Shown: positions 1,276-40,164 of the stretch, one piece after another
Layout of the letters: the number at the start of each line of letters is the position of its first letter
Position numbering within the stretch: position 1 is the stretch's first letter
Assembly: GCA_030432635.1 (NCBI GenBank)
Contig: JAUIMB010000003.1
Location: 1-64,000 of the forward strand
Direction of reading: 5' to 3'
Length of the DNA: 64,000 bases
Source: Bacteroidia bacterium
GTDB taxonomy: Bacteria > Bacteroidota > Bacteroidia > Flavobacteriales > Flavobacteriaceae
Notes under the pieces: model-generated
What the model saw: only the letters and a program-made list of their open reading frames with translations
What the model was told of the DNA's origin: nothing
The model's database searches: none
Translations under genes and position numbers: made by a program

Positions 1276-3091
1276 TAGAAAACTTGCGTTCCAACTCAGC
1301 TTGAAACTCCTCCATTACGGGACGAACTGTACTTTCAGGCAAGTCTGCAATCTTGATATACATAAGTCCGTCAACCGCATTATTAAACAAAGGGTCAACA
1401 TTAAAGGCCACAAGTTTGGCGTTCTGCTTAATATATTTTTTGAGTAACACAGGTAAACGCAATGCTCCTGGTTCGACTTCATCGATGATTTTATCAAACT
1501 TATTGAGATCGGCTTCTGCTTCATCAAAAACAAAATCCTTGTCTGCATCCTTCAGTTTCACCTTAAACTCCTTTTTTGGATGTACATATTGGGCGACATA
1601 CGGATCGTAATAATGGGATTTCATGAACTCAATCATGAGGGATTTTGAGAAATTTGAAAATTGATTGCTAATACTCACACCACCAATTAAATACTTATGT
1701 TCTGGATAGCGAAGTGTTGTGTGGACAATACCTTTCCAAAGTAAGAATAAAGGCATTGGTTTTTGCTGAAACTCCTTAATAATGAAAGCTCTGCCCATTT
1801 CAATCGATTCGCTCATCATTTTATAGAGTTCAGGTTCAAACCGAAACAAATCCTGAAGATAAAAGCCGTCAATACCATAACGCGCATAAATTTTAGATCC
1901 TAATCCCATTCGATAAGCACCTGCAATGCTTTTAGAATCAGTATCCCATAAAAACATATGATGATAATACGTGTCAAAACTATCCAAATCAATGGCTTCA
2001 TTGGTGCCTTCACCAATTTCACGAAAGGTAATTTCACGTAAACGTCCAATTTCGTGTAGGATATTCGGAATCTTATCGGCAGGTGTCAAATATACTTCAT
2101 AGTTCTTGCTTTCCAACAACCTATAATCCCCTTCCCTTAAGGCCTCAACTTCGTTGGCCATTTTTTCTGCACTTACCGAACCCACAATCCGTTTTGGAGG
2201 TTTGGCTGGTGGTTTTAAGGTATTGGAAAGGTTATCTAAAATCTTCGGTTTTGGTTCAAAAGCATTGGATAGCATGTAAGTCTTTCGTCTTAAAAACTCT
2301 GAAAACTCTGGGATGGTAGTCTGTTCTTTCTGATCGCTTACAGAAATTGGCCTCCCAATTCTAACCTTGATGGTACGATGCTTTTGTGTGAGTAACTCTG
2401 AAGGCAATTTTGCCGTTCGGAAGGTATCACTAATCTTGGATAACTTGTAAAATAGTTTAGAGTTCTTAGCATGAAAATACACAGGAACTACGGGAACTTC
2501 TGCTTTTTTTATAAGTTTTATGGCAGCCTCTTCCCAAGGCTTATCCACTACCAATTTACCATCCTTGTAAGTTGACACTTCTCCTGCTGGAAATATGCCT
2601 AATGGGTGACCTTCCTGTAAATGTAGGATAGCATTCTTAAAACCTGCAATGCTAGATTTCACGTCCTTTCTATCCTCAAAAGGATTCACTGGCATGATAT
2701 ACGGTTTCAAAGGCTCGATGCGATGTAAAAGAAAATTCGCTATAATCTTAAAGTCAGAACGTTGTTCTATCATGAGCTTCAGTAACAAAATACCATCAAT
2801 GCCTCCAAGAGGGTGGTTAGACACTGTTATATATGCACCATCTTTAGGCAGACGCTTAATATCTTCCTCAGGAATTTCAAACTTAATCTGAAAATCATCT
2901 AAAATGGCATCCAAAAAATCAACATTATTTAAATGCTTATGTCGTTTATAAATCTTATTGAGGGTAGAAATTTTCAGCACTTTCATCAACAACCATCCGA
3001 AAAAAGTTCCAACAAAGCCGTATTTATCAACCTTGATTGCCTTGGCAACTTCTTTAGCGGTAACTAATCCTATATCTTGTTGTTTACTCAT
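1256..3091 (-). CDS. olsF: OlsF-like bifunctional acyltransferase (ornithine/glycine-type aminolipid synthesis)
   Basis: A 611-residue two-domain protein. Residues ~75-260 form a PlsC-like lysophospholipid acyltransferase with the acceptor motif SNHPLGGID (His93, Asp99; spacing H-x5-D rather than the usual x4) and a later FPAGE motif. Residues ~310-500 resemble the OlsB-type acyl-ACP N-acyltransferase (GNAT) fold, with GRAFI and LLWKGI segments. This O-acyltransferase plus N-acyltransferase order matches OlsF, described in Serratia and Flavobacterium, which makes ornithine lipid from an amino acid and two acyl chains. The assignment to ornithine rather than glycine lipid is inference. It lies 40 bases downstream of aspartate kinase on the same strand and overlaps the next gene by 20 bases. 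It acts at the inner membrane. Confidence 0.72.
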   Translation of the reverse strand: MSKQQDIGLVTAKEVAKAIKVDKYGFVGTFFGWLLMKVLKISTLNKIYKRHKHLNNVDFLDAILDDFQIKFEIPEEDIKRLPKDGAYITVSNHPLGGIDGILLLKLMIEQRSDFKIIANFLLHRIEPLKPYIMPVNPFEDRKDVKSSIAGFKNAILHLQEGHPLGIFPAGEVSTYKDGKLVVDKPWEEAAIKLIKKAEVPVVPVYFHAKNSKLFYKLSKISDTFRTAKLPSELLTQKHRTIKVRIGRPISVSDQKEQTTIPEFSEFLRRKTYMLSNAFEPKPKILDNLSNTLKPPAKPPKRIVGSVSAEKMANEVEALREGDYRLLESKNYEVYLTPADKIPNILHEIGRLREITFREIGEGTNEAIDLDSFDTYYHHMFLWDTDSKSIAGAYRMGLGSKIYARYGIDGFYLQDLFRFEPELYKMMSESIEMGRAFIIKEFQQKPMPLFLLWKGIVHTTLRYPEHKYLIGGVSISNQFSNFSKSLMIEFMKSHYYDPYVAQYVHPKKEFKVKLKDADKDFVFDEAEADLNKFDKIIDEVEPGALRLPVLLKKYIKQNAKLVAFNVDPLFNNAVDGLMYIKIADLPESTVRPVMEEFQAELERKFSNGNNEE

Positions 3092-3131
3092 GAATGTAAA
3101 TGTACTAATACCTATTTAAATCAGTGTCATT

Positions 3132-4382
3132 TTAAATGGTAACCATTTGAACGGTTTCCTGGGTGAGCTGTTTTAGCAATACATTTTTGTCTTTTTCAAT
3201 TGAACGGATATCCTGTTCCTTATAGTGTCTCACCGTATATAGACTCACATTCTCGTGGCATGTTACTTTAAATTTAGATTTTAGATGCTGAAGCAAGCGT
3301 TCAAGGTTATCATAAGTATTTTCAAAACACACTGAAAAACTAATTGCTGAATTTTGAATTACGTCGACTTTCATTTTGTATAGATGCAATAGCTTAAAAA
3401 TCTCACTGATGTTCTCCTCGACGATATAACTAAAATCCAAGGAGGACAATGAGACCAATACTTGGTTTTTCTTTACAATAAAACAAGGCACCTCTGGCGA
3501 AAGGCCAACACCTTTACCTACCTTGGTTCCTGCATTCTTAGGGTTTACAAATGACTTTACATACAAGGGTATTTCCTTTTTTTGAAGTGGTTGTAGTGTT
3601 TTAGGATGAATCACTGAAGCGCCATAAAATGCCAATTCTATGGCTTCTCGATATGAAATATGATCCAGTAATTGTGCCTTCTCAAAATGACGTGGATCTG
3701 CATTTAAGACACCTGGCACATCTTTCCAAATGGTAACATTTTCAGCATTAAGACAGTAACCAAAAATCGCAGCTGAATAATCACTGCCTTCTCTTCCTAA
3801 AGTTGTGGTAAAATTGTTAGTGTCACTTCCTAAAAACCCTTGTGTTATGTTTAAGCTATTTTGATCGAAGTTAGATTTTATGCGTTTTTGGGTTAGGTCC
3901 CAATTGACATTTGCTCTTCGATAATAATCATCTGTTTTGATAAATTCGCGCACGTCGAGCCAATTGTTTTTTATTCCAACATCATTTAAGTACGTTGAAA
4001 CAATCGTTGTTGATATTAGCTCACCGAACCCAATGACCTGATCATAAACAAAGTTATAGTCAGGGGATTTGTTGTGGCGCAAAACATCTTCCATATCGCG
4101 AAAAATAAGACTGATGGTCTTATAAACATCATGCTGGGTATTAACAAACAGATCTAAAAGGATTTCATTGTGAAACTTTTTGACATCCTGTATTGAACTT
4201 TGCAATTCGGCCGATTTGTCCAAATAATTTTTAACGACAATTTCAAGGGCATTTGTGGTTTTTCCCATAGCAGATACGACAACCAAAGTTTGATCATAAC
4301 CAACTTGCTTAAGAACAGAAGCTAGATTTTTAACACCTTCAGCATTTTTTATTGATGCTCCTCCAAATTTAAATACACGCAT
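3132..4382 (-). CDS. lysC: Monofunctional aspartate kinase
   Basis: A 416-residue amino-acid kinase. The N-terminus carries the KFGGAS nucleotide/substrate motif (residues 5-10), and later come TLGREGSDYSAAI and GVLNADPR, characteristic of aspartokinases. The C-terminal ~130 residues are ACT-like regulatory sequence. It phosphorylates aspartate, the first step toward lysine, threonine, methionine and diaminopimelate for peptidoglycan. The length fits a stand-alone kinase without a homoserine dehydrogenase domain. It begins one base after the stop of the upstream GNAT gene, so the two form a tight operon. Which end product inhibits it cannot be read from the sequence. Confidence 0.9.
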   Translation of the reverse strand: MRVFKFGGASIKNAEGVKNLASVLKQVGYDQTLVVVSAMGKTTNALEIVVKNYLDKSAELQSSIQDVKKFHNEILLDLFVNTQHDVYKTISLIFRDMEDVLRHNKSPDYNFVYDQVIGFGELISTTIVSTYLNDVGIKNNWLDVREFIKTDDYYRRANVNWDLTQKRIKSNFDQNSLNITQGFLGSDTNNFTTTLGREGSDYSAAIFGYCLNAENVTIWKDVPGVLNADPRHFEKAQLLDHISYREAIELAFYGASVIHPKTLQPLQKKEIPLYVKSFVNPKNAGTKVGKGVGLSPEVPCFIVKKNQVLVSLSSLDFSYIVEENISEIFKLLHLYKMKVDVIQNSAISFSVCFENTYDNLERLLQHLKSKFKVTCHENVSLYTVRHYKEQDIRSIEKDKNVLLKQLTQETVQMVTI

Positions 4383-35998: not shown

Positions 35999-37132
35999 AT
36001 GATCAATAAACGATTACTTATTAAAAACCTTTTGGCTCATAATGACGAGAATAGCTTTTATGACAAAAAGCGAAAAATCGATATTACCCATAAGGAAGGT
36101 AAAGCCAAATTTTTGAAGCATATATGTGCACTTTCCAATAGTAATCCAAAAAACAATTCATACATCGTAATTGGTGTCGATGATGAAGACAACAAAATTG
36201 TAGGTGTTCACTTTTTTGATGATAGTAAAATCCAAAACCTCATCAACGCCTATCTTTCCAATCCTCCAATAGTACAATATGAGAATATTCCTTTTCCGCA
36301 TTTACCCGATGACAAAGTGGTTGGTTTGGTTACCATAAGACCTATCGATGAGATAACCTCACTTCGGAAGAATATTTGGAAATACTATGGTGGTTCGGTA
36401 TTTTTTAGGGATGGTAGCATGAGCATGCCCAAAATATTCGACATTGAAATCAAGGATGTGAACTCTAAAATTGTCAATGCCATTGAATCGCATGCACAAA
36501 ACAATATCCAATATACTTTGGACGGTGTTTTTGATTTCATGAACAAACGCAAGGATTACAATCCGCAATATATGGTCTTCAAGGAATATTTTGTACTCTG
36601 TTGGTCTGGGCAGAAAAAGGTCGTAAAGGACAACATCTACTATTCTCGCGTTGACATTGAGCTCATTAATGAGCAAGTCCGTTTGTTTTTTTCAACATTG
36701 GATGAAGTCTCGATAACTTATGATAATAATTCGTTTAAAATCATTGAGTATGTGAGTTTAGGACTCCAAAACTCATTTAAATATTATACGTTGGAAGAAA
36801 CTACTATTCTCTTTGAAGACAATGCGCATTATACAATTGAGACCAATTTACTGTTCGAGCCACCACAATTTGACAAGAAGGTGCTACATCATATTTATAA
36901 CGCCAACAATGCCTTGATTGAAAAACTAAAAAAGGGAATTTCATTAACCAAGCATGAAACCCATGATCTTAACAATCTTCCGGCTACATACTTAATATGT
37001 TATCTAAATGAATTCCCTAATGCTATTGATCGATTAACAGAAGCTAAACCCTTATTAAAGAGACACAACAAGGTTGTTTATAATGCTTATCAGGATGCTG
37101 CTCGCATTTTAAGAAAAGTAAAATATAGTTAG
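35999..37132 (+). CDS. AlbA_2 (Schlafen-type) ATP-binding domain protein
   Basis: A 377-residue soluble protein. Residues ~10-130 have the AlbA_2 pattern: ITHKEGKAKFLKHICALSNSNPKNNSYIVIGVDDEDNKIVGV. The C-terminal ~240 residues are a family I recall only as a flavobacterial DUF (DUF5929-like). Its function is unknown; AlbA_2 domains occur in regulators and Schlafen-like nucleases. It is the last gene in the five-gene run. There is no terminator of its own; the small-RNA units begin 30 bases downstream. Confidence 0.7.
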   Translation: MINKRLLIKNLLAHNDENSFYDKKRKIDITHKEGKAKFLKHICALSNSNPKNNSYIVIGVDDEDNKIVGVHFFDDSKIQNLINAYLSNPPIVQYENIPFPHLPDDKVVGLVTIRPIDEITSLRKNIWKYYGGSVFFRDGSMSMPKIFDIEIKDVNSKIVNAIESHAQNNIQYTLDGVFDFMNKRKDYNPQYMVFKEYFVLCWSGQKKVVKDNIYYSRVDIELINEQVRLFFSTLDEVSITYDNNSFKIIEYVSLGLQNSFKYYTLEETTILFEDNAHYTIETNLLFEPPQFDKKVLHHIYNANNALIEKLKKGISLTKHETHDLNNLPATYLICYLNEFPNAIDRLTEAKPLLKRHNKVVYNAYQDAARILRKVKYS

Positions 37133-37161
37133 CTGTTTATCCAAGAAATTTTCAAATCCTT

Positions 37162-37191
37162 TCCGTTTGTGGTGATTTTTTTACCATTTGT
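37162..37191 (+). promoter_or_regulatory. LytTR-type direct-repeat operator upstream of small RNA 1
   Basis: Two boxes, TCCGTTTGT (37162-37170) and ACCATTTGT (37183-37191), are spaced exactly 21 bp start to start. Against the LytTR consensus [TA][AC][CA]GTTN[AG][TG], the first matches 9 of 9 and the second 8 of 9. Each is followed by a T tract. A promoter-like TAGCCTTG lies at 37229-37236. Confidence 0.65.
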
Positions 37192-37242
37192 AGTTTTTTT
37201 CAAGAGCATTTTATTTTTTTTTAGAATTTAGCCTTGCTATTA

Positions 37243-37310
37243 ATCAATTAATTAAGCCTCGTTTCAACATCGATTAACCTCGAAAACGAAATGAGGTTTT
37301 TTTGTTTTTT
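37243..37310 (+). ncRNA. Putative small RNA 1 of a tandem pair
   Basis: The predicted start is ~7 bases after TAGCCTTG, within the 17-base segment TTGCTATTAATCAATTA (37234-37250) shared with unit 2. The transcript would be ~65 nt: an AU-rich 5' end, then a terminator stem GCCTCGTTTC (37256-37265) with GAAATGAGG (37288-37296), a 22-base loop and a long T run to 37310. The loop contains ATCG and TCGAAAA, also found in unit 2. There is no open reading frame. Confidence 0.65.
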
Positions 37311-37373
37311 GCCATTTGATGTTCTTAAACATTCTACCGCAAGGAATTGGCACATTAAAAGGAAAGGAAATTT

Positions 37374-37403
37374 ACCATTCATACAGTTTTTTTGACCACT
37401 CAT
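37374..37403 (+). promoter_or_regulatory. LytTR-type direct-repeat operator upstream of small RNA 2
   Basis: Boxes ACCATTCAT (37374-37382) and ACCACTCAT (37395-37403) are again exactly 21 bp apart and followed by T tracts. They match the LytTR consensus at 8 and 7 of 9 positions. The second box lies 51 bp before the conserved TTGCTATTAATC segment, the same distance as in unit 1. Confidence 0.65.
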
Positions 37404-37454
37404 AGTTTTTTTTATCAAACCAATCTAATTTTACCGATGTTTGTATTGCTATTA

Positions 37455-37519
37455 ATCAATTACAAACAGCCTTGTTTCTGAATCGCTTGTCGAAAATGAA
37501 GCAAGGTTTTTGTTTTTTT
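37455..37519 (+). ncRNA. Putative small RNA 2 of a tandem pair
   Basis: Its layout equals unit 1: TTGCTATTAATCAATTA at 37446-37462, then stem GCCTTGTTTC (37469-37478) with GAAGCAAGG (37498-37506), a 19-base loop with ATCG and TCGAAAA, and a T run to 37519. Relative to unit 1, one stem pair changes from C-G to T-A on both sides, and two more change through G-T wobbles, which supports RNA folding. It ends 4 bases before the stop of the convergent DUF1501 gene. Confidence 0.65.
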
Positions 37520-37523
37520 GCAA

Positions 37524-38714
37524 CTAGATAAACTTCAAATGCGAGAATGATTGATTCAAGATGCGACTATGATCAACAGATAACCATTTATCCAATAACG
37601 TTGCGTAAATCGACCTAAAATCGATCGTATACTTTAAATCTCCATTATCATCTAAATCTGATAAACTTGCCAACTCGTTATAAAAACCAAGTTGCTTTAA
37701 TTGGTTTCCAATAATAAAGACATTATTGGCCGCACCATGGTCTGTACCATGAGCTGCATTTTGTTTCACGCGTCGGCCAAATTCAGAAAAAGTAACAATT
37801 AAGGTATCATTAAACGTTCCTTGTTGTTTTAAATCGGAAACAAAGGCATCAATGCTTTCTGCATAAATATCCAATAACCGTTTTTGACTTTGTACCTGAC
37901 CTGCATGTGTGTCAAAACCACCAAGGGAAGCATAGAAAATTCTTGTGTCGATACCAGAACTGATAAGCTTTGCCGTAGTCTTCATTTGTTGAGCAAAAGC
38001 ATTTTTTGGATAGTCTTTAGAATTGCTTCCAGTTTTATGTTTTTCAAAAATATATTTAGCAGAAGATTCCGCAGCGATCATCGTTTTGTACAAATATCCC
38101 AAATTGTGTTCACTCAAATGTTCATCATCATAATGTTTGAGTACATTCTTAAAGTATGGATCTTGTGAGGTTCTGAACAATGCTTGAGGATTCTTGGCTG
38201 CTATGCCGTACATGTGTTGGCCTTTCATGGCAAGCGAGAGACTATCATCAATTTCAATTGCATTGAACGGCTCATCACCATAGTTATCCAAAAAACGACC
38301 TATCCAACCTGTCGTTAGATATTGATCGGAACGGCTTCCAGTATGCCAAATATCAGTAGCGCGAAAATGCGAACGATTAGGGTTTGGATAACCCACATTA
38401 TTTAGAATCGTCATATAACCCTCATCATAGAGTTTTTTCAACGGAAGCATACTTTCATGAAATCCAAGTTCATTTGTTGCTTTGATGACTTCAGCTTTTG
38501 GAATAGCTATATTTGGCCTGTTCCGATAATAATCATCGTTATTGAACGGGATGATCGTATTCAACCCGTCATTTCCACCAGAAAGTTGGATTAACACCAA
38601 GCGCCTATACCCTAATTGTTTTGGTGAGATGAGCTCTAAAGCCTTTATAAAACTAGGCACAAAAAACAGACTGCTTGCTAAGCTTGATTGCTTTAAAAAA
38701 TCTCTTCTGTCCAT
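37524..38714 (-). CDS. DUF1501 domain protein with Tat-type signal
   Basis: A 396-residue protein started at MDRRDFLKQSSLASSLFF, which carries a twin-arginine signal (RRDFLK). The DUF1501 hallmarks are LVLIQLSGGNDGLNTIIP, SHFRATDIWHTG, LGGFDTHAGQ, TFSEFGRR and GTDHGAANNVF, consistent with an alkaline-phosphatase-like fold with metal ligands. It starts 2 bases after the DUF1800 stop, forming the conserved DUF1800-DUF1501 pair seen in Bacteroidota and Planctomycetes. The pair's function is unknown. Confidence 0.88.
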   Translation of the reverse strand: MDRRDFLKQSSLASSLFFVPSFIKALELISPKQLGYRRLVLIQLSGGNDGLNTIIPFNNDDYYRNRPNIAIPKAEVIKATNELGFHESMLPLKKLYDEGYMTILNNVGYPNPNRSHFRATDIWHTGSRSDQYLTTGWIGRFLDNYGDEPFNAIEIDDSLSLAMKGQHMYGIAAKNPQALFRTSQDPYFKNVLKHYDDEHLSEHNLGYLYKTMIAAESSAKYIFEKHKTGSNSKDYPKNAFAQQMKTTAKLISSGIDTRIFYASLGGFDTHAGQVQSQKRLLDIYAESIDAFVSDLKQQGTFNDTLIVTFSEFGRRVKQNAAHGTDHGAANNVFIIGNQLKQLGFYNELASLSDLDDNGDLKYTIDFRSIYATLLDKWLSVDHSRILNQSFSHLKFI

Positions 38715-38716
38715 AA

Positions 38717-40084
38717 TTAACACATTTGATATTCCGGTAACGACATCAACTGAACACAAACATCGCGTTTGGAGGTTTTGCTCAACCCTTCAAAATAAGA
38801 TTTAGTGCCATTATTTAATTTTGTAGTAATAAGGATTGATTTTAAATCATTGGTCGAAACCTTATCAAATTGATCTTCAAAAGCTACCCAATCAACTTCT
38901 ACTTTTACAAAATCATTTGATCGTTGTTTATAATATTTTTTAAATGAATCTTCAAATTCACCTTTTTCGGTTAATGAAATCTTAGCGTTTGACAATAAAA
39001 CTGAAGGCAGTTTTAGACGCATCATTATGGTATTGCTGTCTATCCAACTTCGACCACCTTCCCATCCTGCCACATTTGGAGGATACAATAGGACTTGTCC
39101 TAAAAGTTTCTGGATTTTTATGATATCCTTTGCGTTTTTAAATTCCATGGGAACCATTTTTAAGATTCCCACTAAAAATTCAATAGGTGACTTTATCTTG
39201 ACTCCTATGTTTTTACCATCATAAAACCAATCTGCCATCAGTAAAAAACGCATAAGGGTCTCTATATTATAATCTTTATAAAATACATCAGTAAGTTCAT
39301 TAACTCTCGCTTCATCAAGATTTTCATTAACAAAATACCTATAGATTTTCTCACAGATAAAGCGAGCGCATTGTCTTTGTTTTAAAATAATATCGATGAT
39401 ATCATCACCGTCATAACGCCCTGTATGTCCAAAAAAAGTTTTAAACCCATTGTCATGCTGTTGTTGCCAAAGCTTGAACTCACCTTCATAATTATGGCTA
39501 TATCCTGTAAATGCTCGAGCACTTTCCTTGATATCTTCTTCAGTATAATGTCCTTCGCCAAGCATAAATAACTCCATAAGTTCGCGGGCAAAATTCTCGT
39601 TAGGTTTGGATTTTCGATTTTGCTTATTATTTAAGTACTTTAGCATGGCTGCTTCTTTTGAAATCGCCTTCACAAAATCACCAAAATCTCCTAACGCATG
39701 AGACCGTAAGGTATTATTGTACTGCTGAACGTGAAGGATGTGATTGTCACGACATACAAAATGGTTTGCCCAAAACAAAGTCATTTTCTCCCTTAACAAA
39801 GCATTAGAAGTCACTAGTCGATTAACCCAAAGCGTATTAAACGCCTTTAGTTTTTTTGTACTGACATCCCTGAACAATTTACGGTTACTTTTAGTCTTCA
39901 AATCGTATTGGGTAAGATGGTCAATTTCTGAAGTGTCAGTTTCTAAAACAGTCAAATTTGTAGCATTCTGAAAGAGCATGTCCACGACTTGATGTCGATC
40001 GAATTGAGATAGCACCTCTAGTTGTGTTGGCGTTGCTCCAAAACCTGTTCTCCAATATAAATGCTGAATGTGCTGCTTCTTCAT
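38717..40084 (-). CDS. DUF1800 domain protein
   Basis: A 455-residue protein started at MKKQHIQHLYWRTGFG; a TTG five codons upstream is less likely. The DUF1800 signatures are seen: WRTGFGAT, MTLFWANHFVC, KPNENFARELMELFMLGEGHYTEEDIKESARAFTGY and a C-terminal YPPNVAGWEGGRSWIDS. It is predicted helical and has no evident signal peptide. It works, as far as known, with the adjoining DUF1501 protein, 2 bases downstream. Confidence 0.88.
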   Translation of the reverse strand: MKKQHIQHLYWRTGFGATPTQLEVLSQFDRHQVVDMLFQNATNLTVLETDTSEIDHLTQYDLKTKSNRKLFRDVSTKKLKAFNTLWVNRLVTSNALLREKMTLFWANHFVCRDNHILHVQQYNNTLRSHALGDFGDFVKAISKEAAMLKYLNNKQNRKSKPNENFARELMELFMLGEGHYTEEDIKESARAFTGYSHNYEGEFKLWQQQHDNGFKTFFGHTGRYDGDDIIDIILKQRQCARFICEKIYRYFVNENLDEARVNELTDVFYKDYNIETLMRFLLMADWFYDGKNIGVKIKSPIEFLVGILKMVPMEFKNAKDIIKIQKLLGQVLLYPPNVAGWEGGRSWIDSNTIMMRLKLPSVLLSNAKISLTEKGEFEDSFKKYYKQRSNDFVKVEVDWVAFEDQFDKVSTNDLKSILITTKLNNGTKSYFEGLSKTSKRDVCVQLMSLPEYQMC

Positions 40085-40164
40085 AACTATTTGACCCAAA
40101 TGGGTTCGTTTAGTTTAATCCTCTCAAAAATGATTCCAAGATAATTCCCTAAAGAAGATACTAA

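Follow-up and report, generated by a model that had tools for sequence, protein, structure and literature searches.

LhrC, Qrr, and OmrA/B are multi-copy sibling small RNAs (sRNAs) that share a pairing region, and some of them are arranged in tandem. GadY is encoded opposite its target and pairs with the 3′ part of the mRNA. VirR, a regulator of another sRNA, is a LytTR protein. The sRNAs described in PMC3673130 as being driven by regulators of this kind are RNAIII (AgrA), FasX (FasA), and VR-RNA (VirR), of which FasX binds the 5′UTR of an mRNA and raises the stability of that mRNA. According to the account given in PMC11347149, LytTR regulators canonically recognize two 9-bp direct repeats with 10–13 bp between them, and most such regulators bind upstream of the −35 region and activate transcription. 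In the Flavobacteriaceae, Rfp18 was the only functionally tested trans-acting sRNA in the open literature searched; its deletion lowers two protease mRNAs in Flavobacterium psychrophilum, as described in Guerin et al. (2021; PMC9723704). The sigma-A promoters of this species are described there as having a −7 box, TAnnTTTG, at −12 to −5 (PMC9723704).

The window analyzed here comprises 64,000 nucleotides of the genome of a marine member of the family Flavobacteriaceae (GCA_030432635.1, contig JAUIMB010000003.1). A sequence check placed in it a gene-free gap of 391 bp (37133–37523) holding two plus-strand units, the features of which are listed in Table 1. The gap lies between a 377-aa plus-strand gene, which ends at 37132, and a minus-strand DUF1501 gene, the stop codon of which ends at 37524; the ORFs overlapping the gap are only 20–56 aa long. 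The DUF1501 gene and a DUF1800 gene are adjacent at 37524–40099 and convergent with the units. The initial annotation had described the pair correctly in its local features: the two 9-bp boxes are 21 bp apart in both units, an identical 17-mer, TTGCTATTAATCAATTA, begins in each 51 bp downstream of the first base of box 2, and the stem arms (CCTCGTTTC/GAAATGAGG vs. CCTTGTTTC/GAAGCAAGG) differ by one compensatory change from C-G to T-A and two wobble changes. Its reading of the units as two short sRNA genes with two-box LytTR-like operators is well supported by conservation, covariation, and promoter register, with a predicted transcript size of approximately 64–72 nt. The transcript starts, which it had put near 37243 and 37455, are corrected by the promoter register to predicted positions 37236 and 37448. 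The initial annotation saw the local pair only; the larger finding is the shared 5′-terminal decamer, together with the other units that carry it and the occurrence of its complement in mRNA UTRs. In the folds of both predicted sRNAs, the 5′ end is unpaired and is followed by one main hairpin (fold z-scores −4.3 and −2.8). A generic scan of the gap, which admits loops of 3–8 nt only, found no terminator; it also found no plus-strand sigma-70 promoter, the TAnnTTTG type being outside its scope.

Table 1. Features of the two-unit locus and its upstream landmark (positions refer to the window; positions relative to the start count from the predicted +1)
Feature	Coordinates	Strand	Basis and remarks
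SLFN_AlbA_2/DUF5929 gene	35999..37132	+	Pfam domains; precedes the sRNA locus in several genera and so marks it by synteny; given as context, role not implied
Unit 1, LytTR-like box 1, TCCGTTTGT	37162–37170	+	−74; read from the sequence; position kept in further units
Unit 1, LytTR-like box 2, ACCATTTGT	37183–37191	+	−53; read from the sequence; position kept in further units
Unit 1, −7 box, weak TAnnTTTG, reads GAATTTAG	37224..37231	+	−12 to −5; F. psychrophilum register and 84 family rows
Unit 1, 17-mer	start 37234	+	Sequence
Predicted sRNA 1, ~68 nt	37236..37303	+	Promoter register, covarying terminator
Unit 1, seed GCTATTAATC, predicted +1 to +10	37236..37245	+	Synteny, family rows, site and count comparisons
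Unit 1, terminator	37257..37303; arms 37257–37265/37288–37296, T-run 37297–37303	+	Sequence, fold, covariation
Unit 2, LytTR-like box 1, ACCATTCAT	37374–37382	+	−74; sequence, aligned units, operator pattern
Unit 2, LytTR-like box 2, ACCACTCAT	37395–37403	+	−53; sequence, aligned units, operator pattern
Unit 2, −7 box, GATGTTTG	37436..37443	+	−12 to −5; sequence, F. psychrophilum register, family rows
Unit 2, 17-mer	start 37446	+	Sequence
Predicted sRNA 2, ~64–72 nt	37448 to about 37511–37519	+	Fold, covariation, promoter register
Unit 2, seed GCTATTAATC, predicted +1 to +10	37448..37457	+	Synteny, family rows, site and count comparisons
Unit 2, terminator	37470..37519; arms 37470–37478/37498–37506, then T-rich tail	+	Sequence, fold, covariation

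The likeness to LhrC, Qrr, and OmrA/B consists in several sRNAs with a common pairing region, some in tandem; unlike in those systems, the ten shared nucleotides are predicted to lie at the extreme 5′ end of dissimilar RNAs, and their complements are found mainly near 3′ ends. Predicted pairing in the 3′ part of an mRNA recalls GadY, but the site is carried here by many unlinked genes. With RNAIII, FasX, and VR-RNA, as far as these are described in PMC3673130, the units would share the arrangement of a short regulatory RNA gene under a LytTR-family regulator. Those RNAs are Gram-positive, whereas the present units occur in tandem copies, have a seed common to other units, and have sites mostly near 3′ ends; a sequence relation, checked through Rfam alone, was not found. 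The Rfp RNAs are likewise Flavobacteriaceae sRNAs in a host with TAnnTTTG sigma-A promoters (PMC9723704). However, the predicted pairing region of Rfp18 is its third stem-loop in the description given there, and the window's units, which fold into one main hairpin preceded by a single-stranded 5′ seed, do not provide for pairing of that kind. The comparison covers the description of Rfp18, and another Rfp RNA could be a member of the present family.

The 14-mer TTGCTATTAATCAA was present in 38 of 97 relatives, at up to nine copies per genome, compared with one copy of the reversed control in each of six; it was not found in two genomes of the same genus (G003 and G021), and one place (G075) was left out of the instances examined. 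Thirty-one units, chosen by the seed, could be aligned with the box pair, −7 region, seed, and hairpin in matching positions; in some of them, the boxes are degenerate. The architecture first noted in the window thus recurs in relatives beyond what chance would give. Tandem copies were seen in several genomes and three copies in one (L045). The hairpin covaries: in 28 rows, 94.6% of the cells are paired and 8 of 16 pairs are double-changed, and among 500 shuffles none reached four of the five measures and one reached the fifth. The covariance model matched 117 of 397 Flavobacteriaceae genomes in 81 of 237 genera (E ≤ 0.01); it was built from exact-seed rows, and the conservation of the seed in its matches is therefore partly by construction. 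In an alignment of 60 family-wide matches, 15 of the 16 pairs were double-changed, with 129 double-change cells vs. a shuffled mean of 37, counts that are biased by the fitting of this alignment to the model. For the box and start-site tallies and the look at the inner hairpin, 86 of 115 model matches, in 73 loci, were listed by hand; left out were four matches that are copies of the window's pair and a further 25 that were weaker and for the most part lay opposite a counted match, on the other strand. In wider family matches, for example L190, L192, and L199, the inner hairpin often reads TTTCTCCCGA..TCGGCATTGAA, an asymmetric internal loop common across genera and perhaps a protein contact.

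The initial annotation knew of no named family that fits, and Rfam 15 gave no match in the window at the gathering cut-off. Below the threshold, two matches were obtained for 37100–37600, both far below the cut-off. Nine further loci gave no Rfam match. The open literature searched held no description of the decamer motif, of such a Flavobacteriaceae sRNA family, or of its link to LytTR regulators. The units, with a promoter of their own, an intrinsic terminator, a covarying structure, and no clear coding potential, all as predicted, have the properties of stand-alone sRNA genes and apparently represent a widespread Flavobacteriaceae sRNA family undescribed so far.

The transcription start was predicted from the register of the −7 box. 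With the G of GCTATTAATC set as +1, the 84 family rows (the 86 hand-listed matches after de-duplication) have A at −11 in every case, T at −8 and at −7 in 83 each, and G at −5 in 66, while position −2 is variable. The exact decamer occupies +1 to +10 in 76 of the 84 rows; conservation rises at +1 and drops past +10. With the −7 box at −12 to −5 relative to this G, the decamer should therefore be nucleotides +1 to +10 of the transcript.

The same register was obtained in a synteny set. The gene with SLFN_AlbA_2 and DUF5929 domains was present in 100 of 120 family genomes, and in 70 of these 100 (one region being 446 nt long) the sequence downstream of it was searched, so that the places were not chosen by the seed. 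The exact decamer was found in the sense orientation within 520 nt of the gene in 29 of the 70 genomes and in the antisense orientation in none. The 32 syntenic units lie 66–321 nt past the end of the gene, and 30 of them have the −7 core in register (A at −11, TT at −8/−7), as in the 84 family rows. All 29 decamer-bearing genomes fall within the 45 best-scoring SLFN_AlbA_2 homologues of the 70, among which six more genomes have only a word with one mismatch; the decamer was absent from this place in the 25 genomes with the lowest-scoring homologues. The sRNA locus is therefore old, yet confined to a single large lineage.

The boxes of the window's pair are 9-bp repeats separated by 12 bp and located at −74 and −53, upstream of the promoter, which is the layout of a LytTR operator. 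Against a null of single-base shuffles, with box weights set by the analyst, the two-box score was above 99% of shuffled upstream regions in 31 of 86 family matches, in 30 of which the boxes are at the same place within 1 nt; the other 55 fell below the threshold. The boxes of unit 1 deviate most. A 39-nt operator pattern (up to three mismatches) was matched 18 times across 12 of 14 genomes from the same genus and not at all in nine genomes of other families, and its reversed control had no match. All 18 matches precede seed-bearing units (L379 being judged through L100), and the search led to no second kind of locus that could point to the regulator. LytTR control therefore appears to belong to a subset of the family, the window's pair included. 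The absence of a LytTR gene from the window, stated in the initial annotation, was borne out; the genome has 22 LytTR (PF04397) loci, all elsewhere, and a LytTR-type regulator encoded outside the window would switch on the pair.

The units might instead be repeat elements or copies of a terminator that are not themselves transcribed, which could also lie in tandem in a convergent gene gap. This explanation is extremely improbable, since promoter, seed, and hairpin keep a fixed layout in 31 units and in 84 family rows, the boxes hold the same place in 30 of the 31 matches that score, and the hairpin covaries, and a plain duplicated terminator was rejected on the conservation of promoter register, boxes, and covariation.

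The decamer is not confined to the tandem pair. The window's own genome contains 30 copies of GCTATTAATC vs. two of the reversed word. Three further copies (L265, L269, and L284) are accompanied by an in-register −7 box and by a terminator, but their upstream sequences and hairpins are different; units resembling L265 and L269 are found throughout the genus. Past its T-run, L265 continues directly into a long open frame with a likely start codon there, and it may be a leader instead of an sRNA. Three more sites in this genome are at probable mRNA starts, one in register (L255) and two one nucleotide out (L256 and L257). The sense motif at the start of some protein-coding leaders is not required by the sibling-sRNA model.

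Several further loci with the motif were noted. At L255, L067, and L483, in the window's genome and in relatives, the seed itself seems to form the 5′ end of mRNAs for a short protein that looks secreted (MKKLLLS..). At eight same-genus loci (L053 at 2987–3150, L029, L035, L048, L068, L075, L086, and L107), the sense motif is located in a conserved leader 124–136 nt before a large ORF; Pfam identifies the 684-aa product in L053 as a histidine kinase of the TPR-HisKA type. In distant genera, the decamer is followed by TTCAATTT.. and GGTGTAAATTTAG.AAT.GTTT in a conserved non-coding element (L320, L323, L324, L326, L327, L328, L330, L331, L333, L334, and L342), at which the script found no promoter or nearby ORF.

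Complementary sites were classified from the instances of the 14-mer in the window's genome and its relatives, of which there were 130 distinct ones and one too near a contig end, or 128 after stricter de-duplication. These 128 comprise 42 instances with a sense terminator, 38 antisense instances between a stop codon and a terminator, 18 antisense instances before a start codon, 8 in coding sequence, and 22 others; L027, with a weak terminator, was placed by hand among the others, and L123, included in the 42, is a gene end that lacks a −7 box. For sites located 2–50 nt past a stop codon and ahead of a terminator, the count was thus 38 antisense vs. 0 sense (n = 128). The −7 core was in register in 40 of the 42 sense-terminator instances vs. 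0 of the 38 stop-codon-to-terminator instances. The 38 antisense sites belong to 11 gene groups, which were assigned by Pfam on one member each, the other members being grouped by length and end sequences: CAP (16), YceI (8), fasciclin (3), an unassigned protein of 160–161 aa (3), RND pump (2), and single members for ferritin-like/Dps, pirin, DUF4437, a T9SS cargo, and two unassigned proteins. For 10 antisense sites of the window's genome, the predicted duplex energies were −13.6 to −18.8 kcal/mol. The predicted RNAs therefore combine an accessible conserved seed with complementary sites in mRNAs, as a base-pairing sRNA would.

Two explanations of the decamer that do without such pairing were weighed against this distribution. 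A site for a DNA-binding protein at promoters and near gene ends, with the RNAs incidental, would fit the AT-rich partial dyad of GCTATTAATC with its palindromic ATTAAT centre, as well as its occurrence at promoters and in intergenic regions; it should, however, show both strands at gene ends, and neither the confinement of the −7 core to one class nor the antisense bias agrees with it. This DNA-operator reading is disfavoured by the strand bias and we consider it quite unlikely, although the unselected sample described below is less clean in this respect. A cis-acting 5′-end signal, acting in start-site preference, RNA stability, or capping, would account for the sense motif at +1 of both sRNAs and of some mRNAs and would leave the antisense sites to another cause; it does not predict a complement near terminators, and we give it very little credence.

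The 14-mer is a selected word, and an unselected check was made on 90 decamer sites in three genomes (all 30 sites of the window's genome, 30 of 56 in G011, and 30 of 38 in G190). Support from this sample is weaker than from the 14-mer set. Of the 90 sites, 27 were coding and 63 non-coding, the latter compared with 215 of 1164 for shuffled words in the same loci. Among the non-coding sites, a −7 box was found at 11/63 vs. 3/215 (p = 8e-6), a sense terminator at 15/63 vs. 16/215 (p = 9e-4), and an antisense terminator at 19/63 vs. 9/215 (p = 7e-8). Under the strict stop-codon rule, the 90 sites gave 6 antisense vs. 2 sense, and the claim in the unselected sample therefore rests on the terminator measure. 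A site directly before the RND-pump terminator was found in the window's genome, in G011, and in G190, which is of another genus; in G190 it overlaps the stop codon, where coding constraint acts. In all three, a site at ftsZ (identified by Pfam in the window's genome) likewise overlaps the stop codon and may reflect coding constraint. Fourteen of the 18 pre-start sites lie 30–39 nt before the ATG, seven of them at one STAS-type gene of 92–93 aa; such sites are possibly upstream of the transcription start and are treated as suggestive only. In L448 and L484, near position 1500, an antisense decamer site is preceded by a small hydrophobic ORF (~22 aa, MKNI.RIVLLV..), possibly a membrane peptide, and near position 1500 of L281 the site and downstream sequence are similar to those of L448 and L484.

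The direction of regulation might be the reverse, with mRNA 3′-end fragments carrying GAUUAAUAGC before the terminator as the regulators and the 5′ ends beginning with GCUAUUAAUC, on sRNAs as well as some mRNA leaders, as targets or sponges. The position of the 38 antisense sites, shortly past stop codons and by terminators, is the layout of 3′UTR-derived sRNAs, and some protein-coding leaders also begin with the motif (L255, L256 and L257 with their one-nucleotide shift, and the kinase leader). Pairing by itself cannot fix the direction; however, the 5′ motif is carried by structured, covarying, often tandem genes with promoters of their own, and we regard the reversed direction as unlikely.

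The abundance of the decamer differs between genomes with and without the syntenic unit. The 28 genomes with a unit (of 29, the window's genome being omitted) contain 819 decamers (median 29) and the 25 without (of 41) contain 174 (median 6), a comparison that is confounded by phylogeny and omits 16 nearer genomes without the exact decamer at the syntenic place; per megabase, the two groups do not overlap. The reversed control word occurred 100 times in genomes with the unit vs. 90 times in those without (p = 0.78), and since it does not differ, base composition is argued against as the cause of the excess. The flanks of the target sites were compared in 20 genomes, in 18 of which the unit continues with T where the window has AATT, mostly as ATCTTTT. 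Allowing one mismatch, the matching 15-mer had 82 sites vs. 37 for the control, a modest excess, and the AATT form had 158 vs. 23. In these 20 genomes, the flanks beyond the ten-letter core did not follow the local unit; the seed core hardly varies, and no matching change of seed and target was seen in the flanks.

The window's pair are probably tandem sibling trans-acting sRNAs, driven by a LytTR regulator, whose common 5′-terminal seed pairs with sites in mRNA UTRs. The sequences themselves show the family with its covarying hairpin, the register of the promoter, the decamer held in common, and the strand bias of the complementary sites; transcription, LytTR control, pairing, and the outcome of pairing are predicted from them. 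A LytTR-family activator from elsewhere would bind the direct repeats at −74 and −53 of each start and help sigma-A RNA polymerase at the −7 box. Each transcript of approximately 64–72 nt would have an unpaired 5′ end, GCUAUUAAUCAAUUA, and one terminator hairpin at its end. Its first ten nucleotides would be the seed, pairing with GAUUAAUAGC sites in mRNA UTRs, mostly past the stop codon and close to the terminator, with a possible second location 30–39 nt before the start codon. Such pairing would change the decay or translation of the target mRNAs, several of which are predicted to encode envelope, secreted, or stress proteins (CAP, fasciclin, YceI, Dps/ferritin, pirin, RND pump, and T9SS cargo). 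Other sRNA-like units of the same genome have the seed behind different upstream regions, and several signals may feed one seed regulon.

More tentatively, and with slightly less than even confidence, we suggest that one large Flavobacteriaceae lineage uses a single ten-nucleotide code, in which many unrelated transcripts have GCUAUUAAUC as their 5′ end from +1 on and the complement is found by the terminators of dozens of mRNAs. If true, this would be a genome-wide RNA pairing network with a logic like that of a microRNA seed family, acting mainly on 3′ ends, and the transcripts that start with the code would be sRNAs under several regulators together with some mRNA leaders.

Post-transcriptional control in the Flavobacteriaceae is little explored. 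The finding adds an sRNA class known from many genera, for which the start is predicted to the nucleotide, the seed is defined, a type of regulator can be proposed, and recurrent target sites are listed. If the terminator-proximal sites work, sRNA targeting of 3′ ends would be the rule, not the exception, in this lineage.
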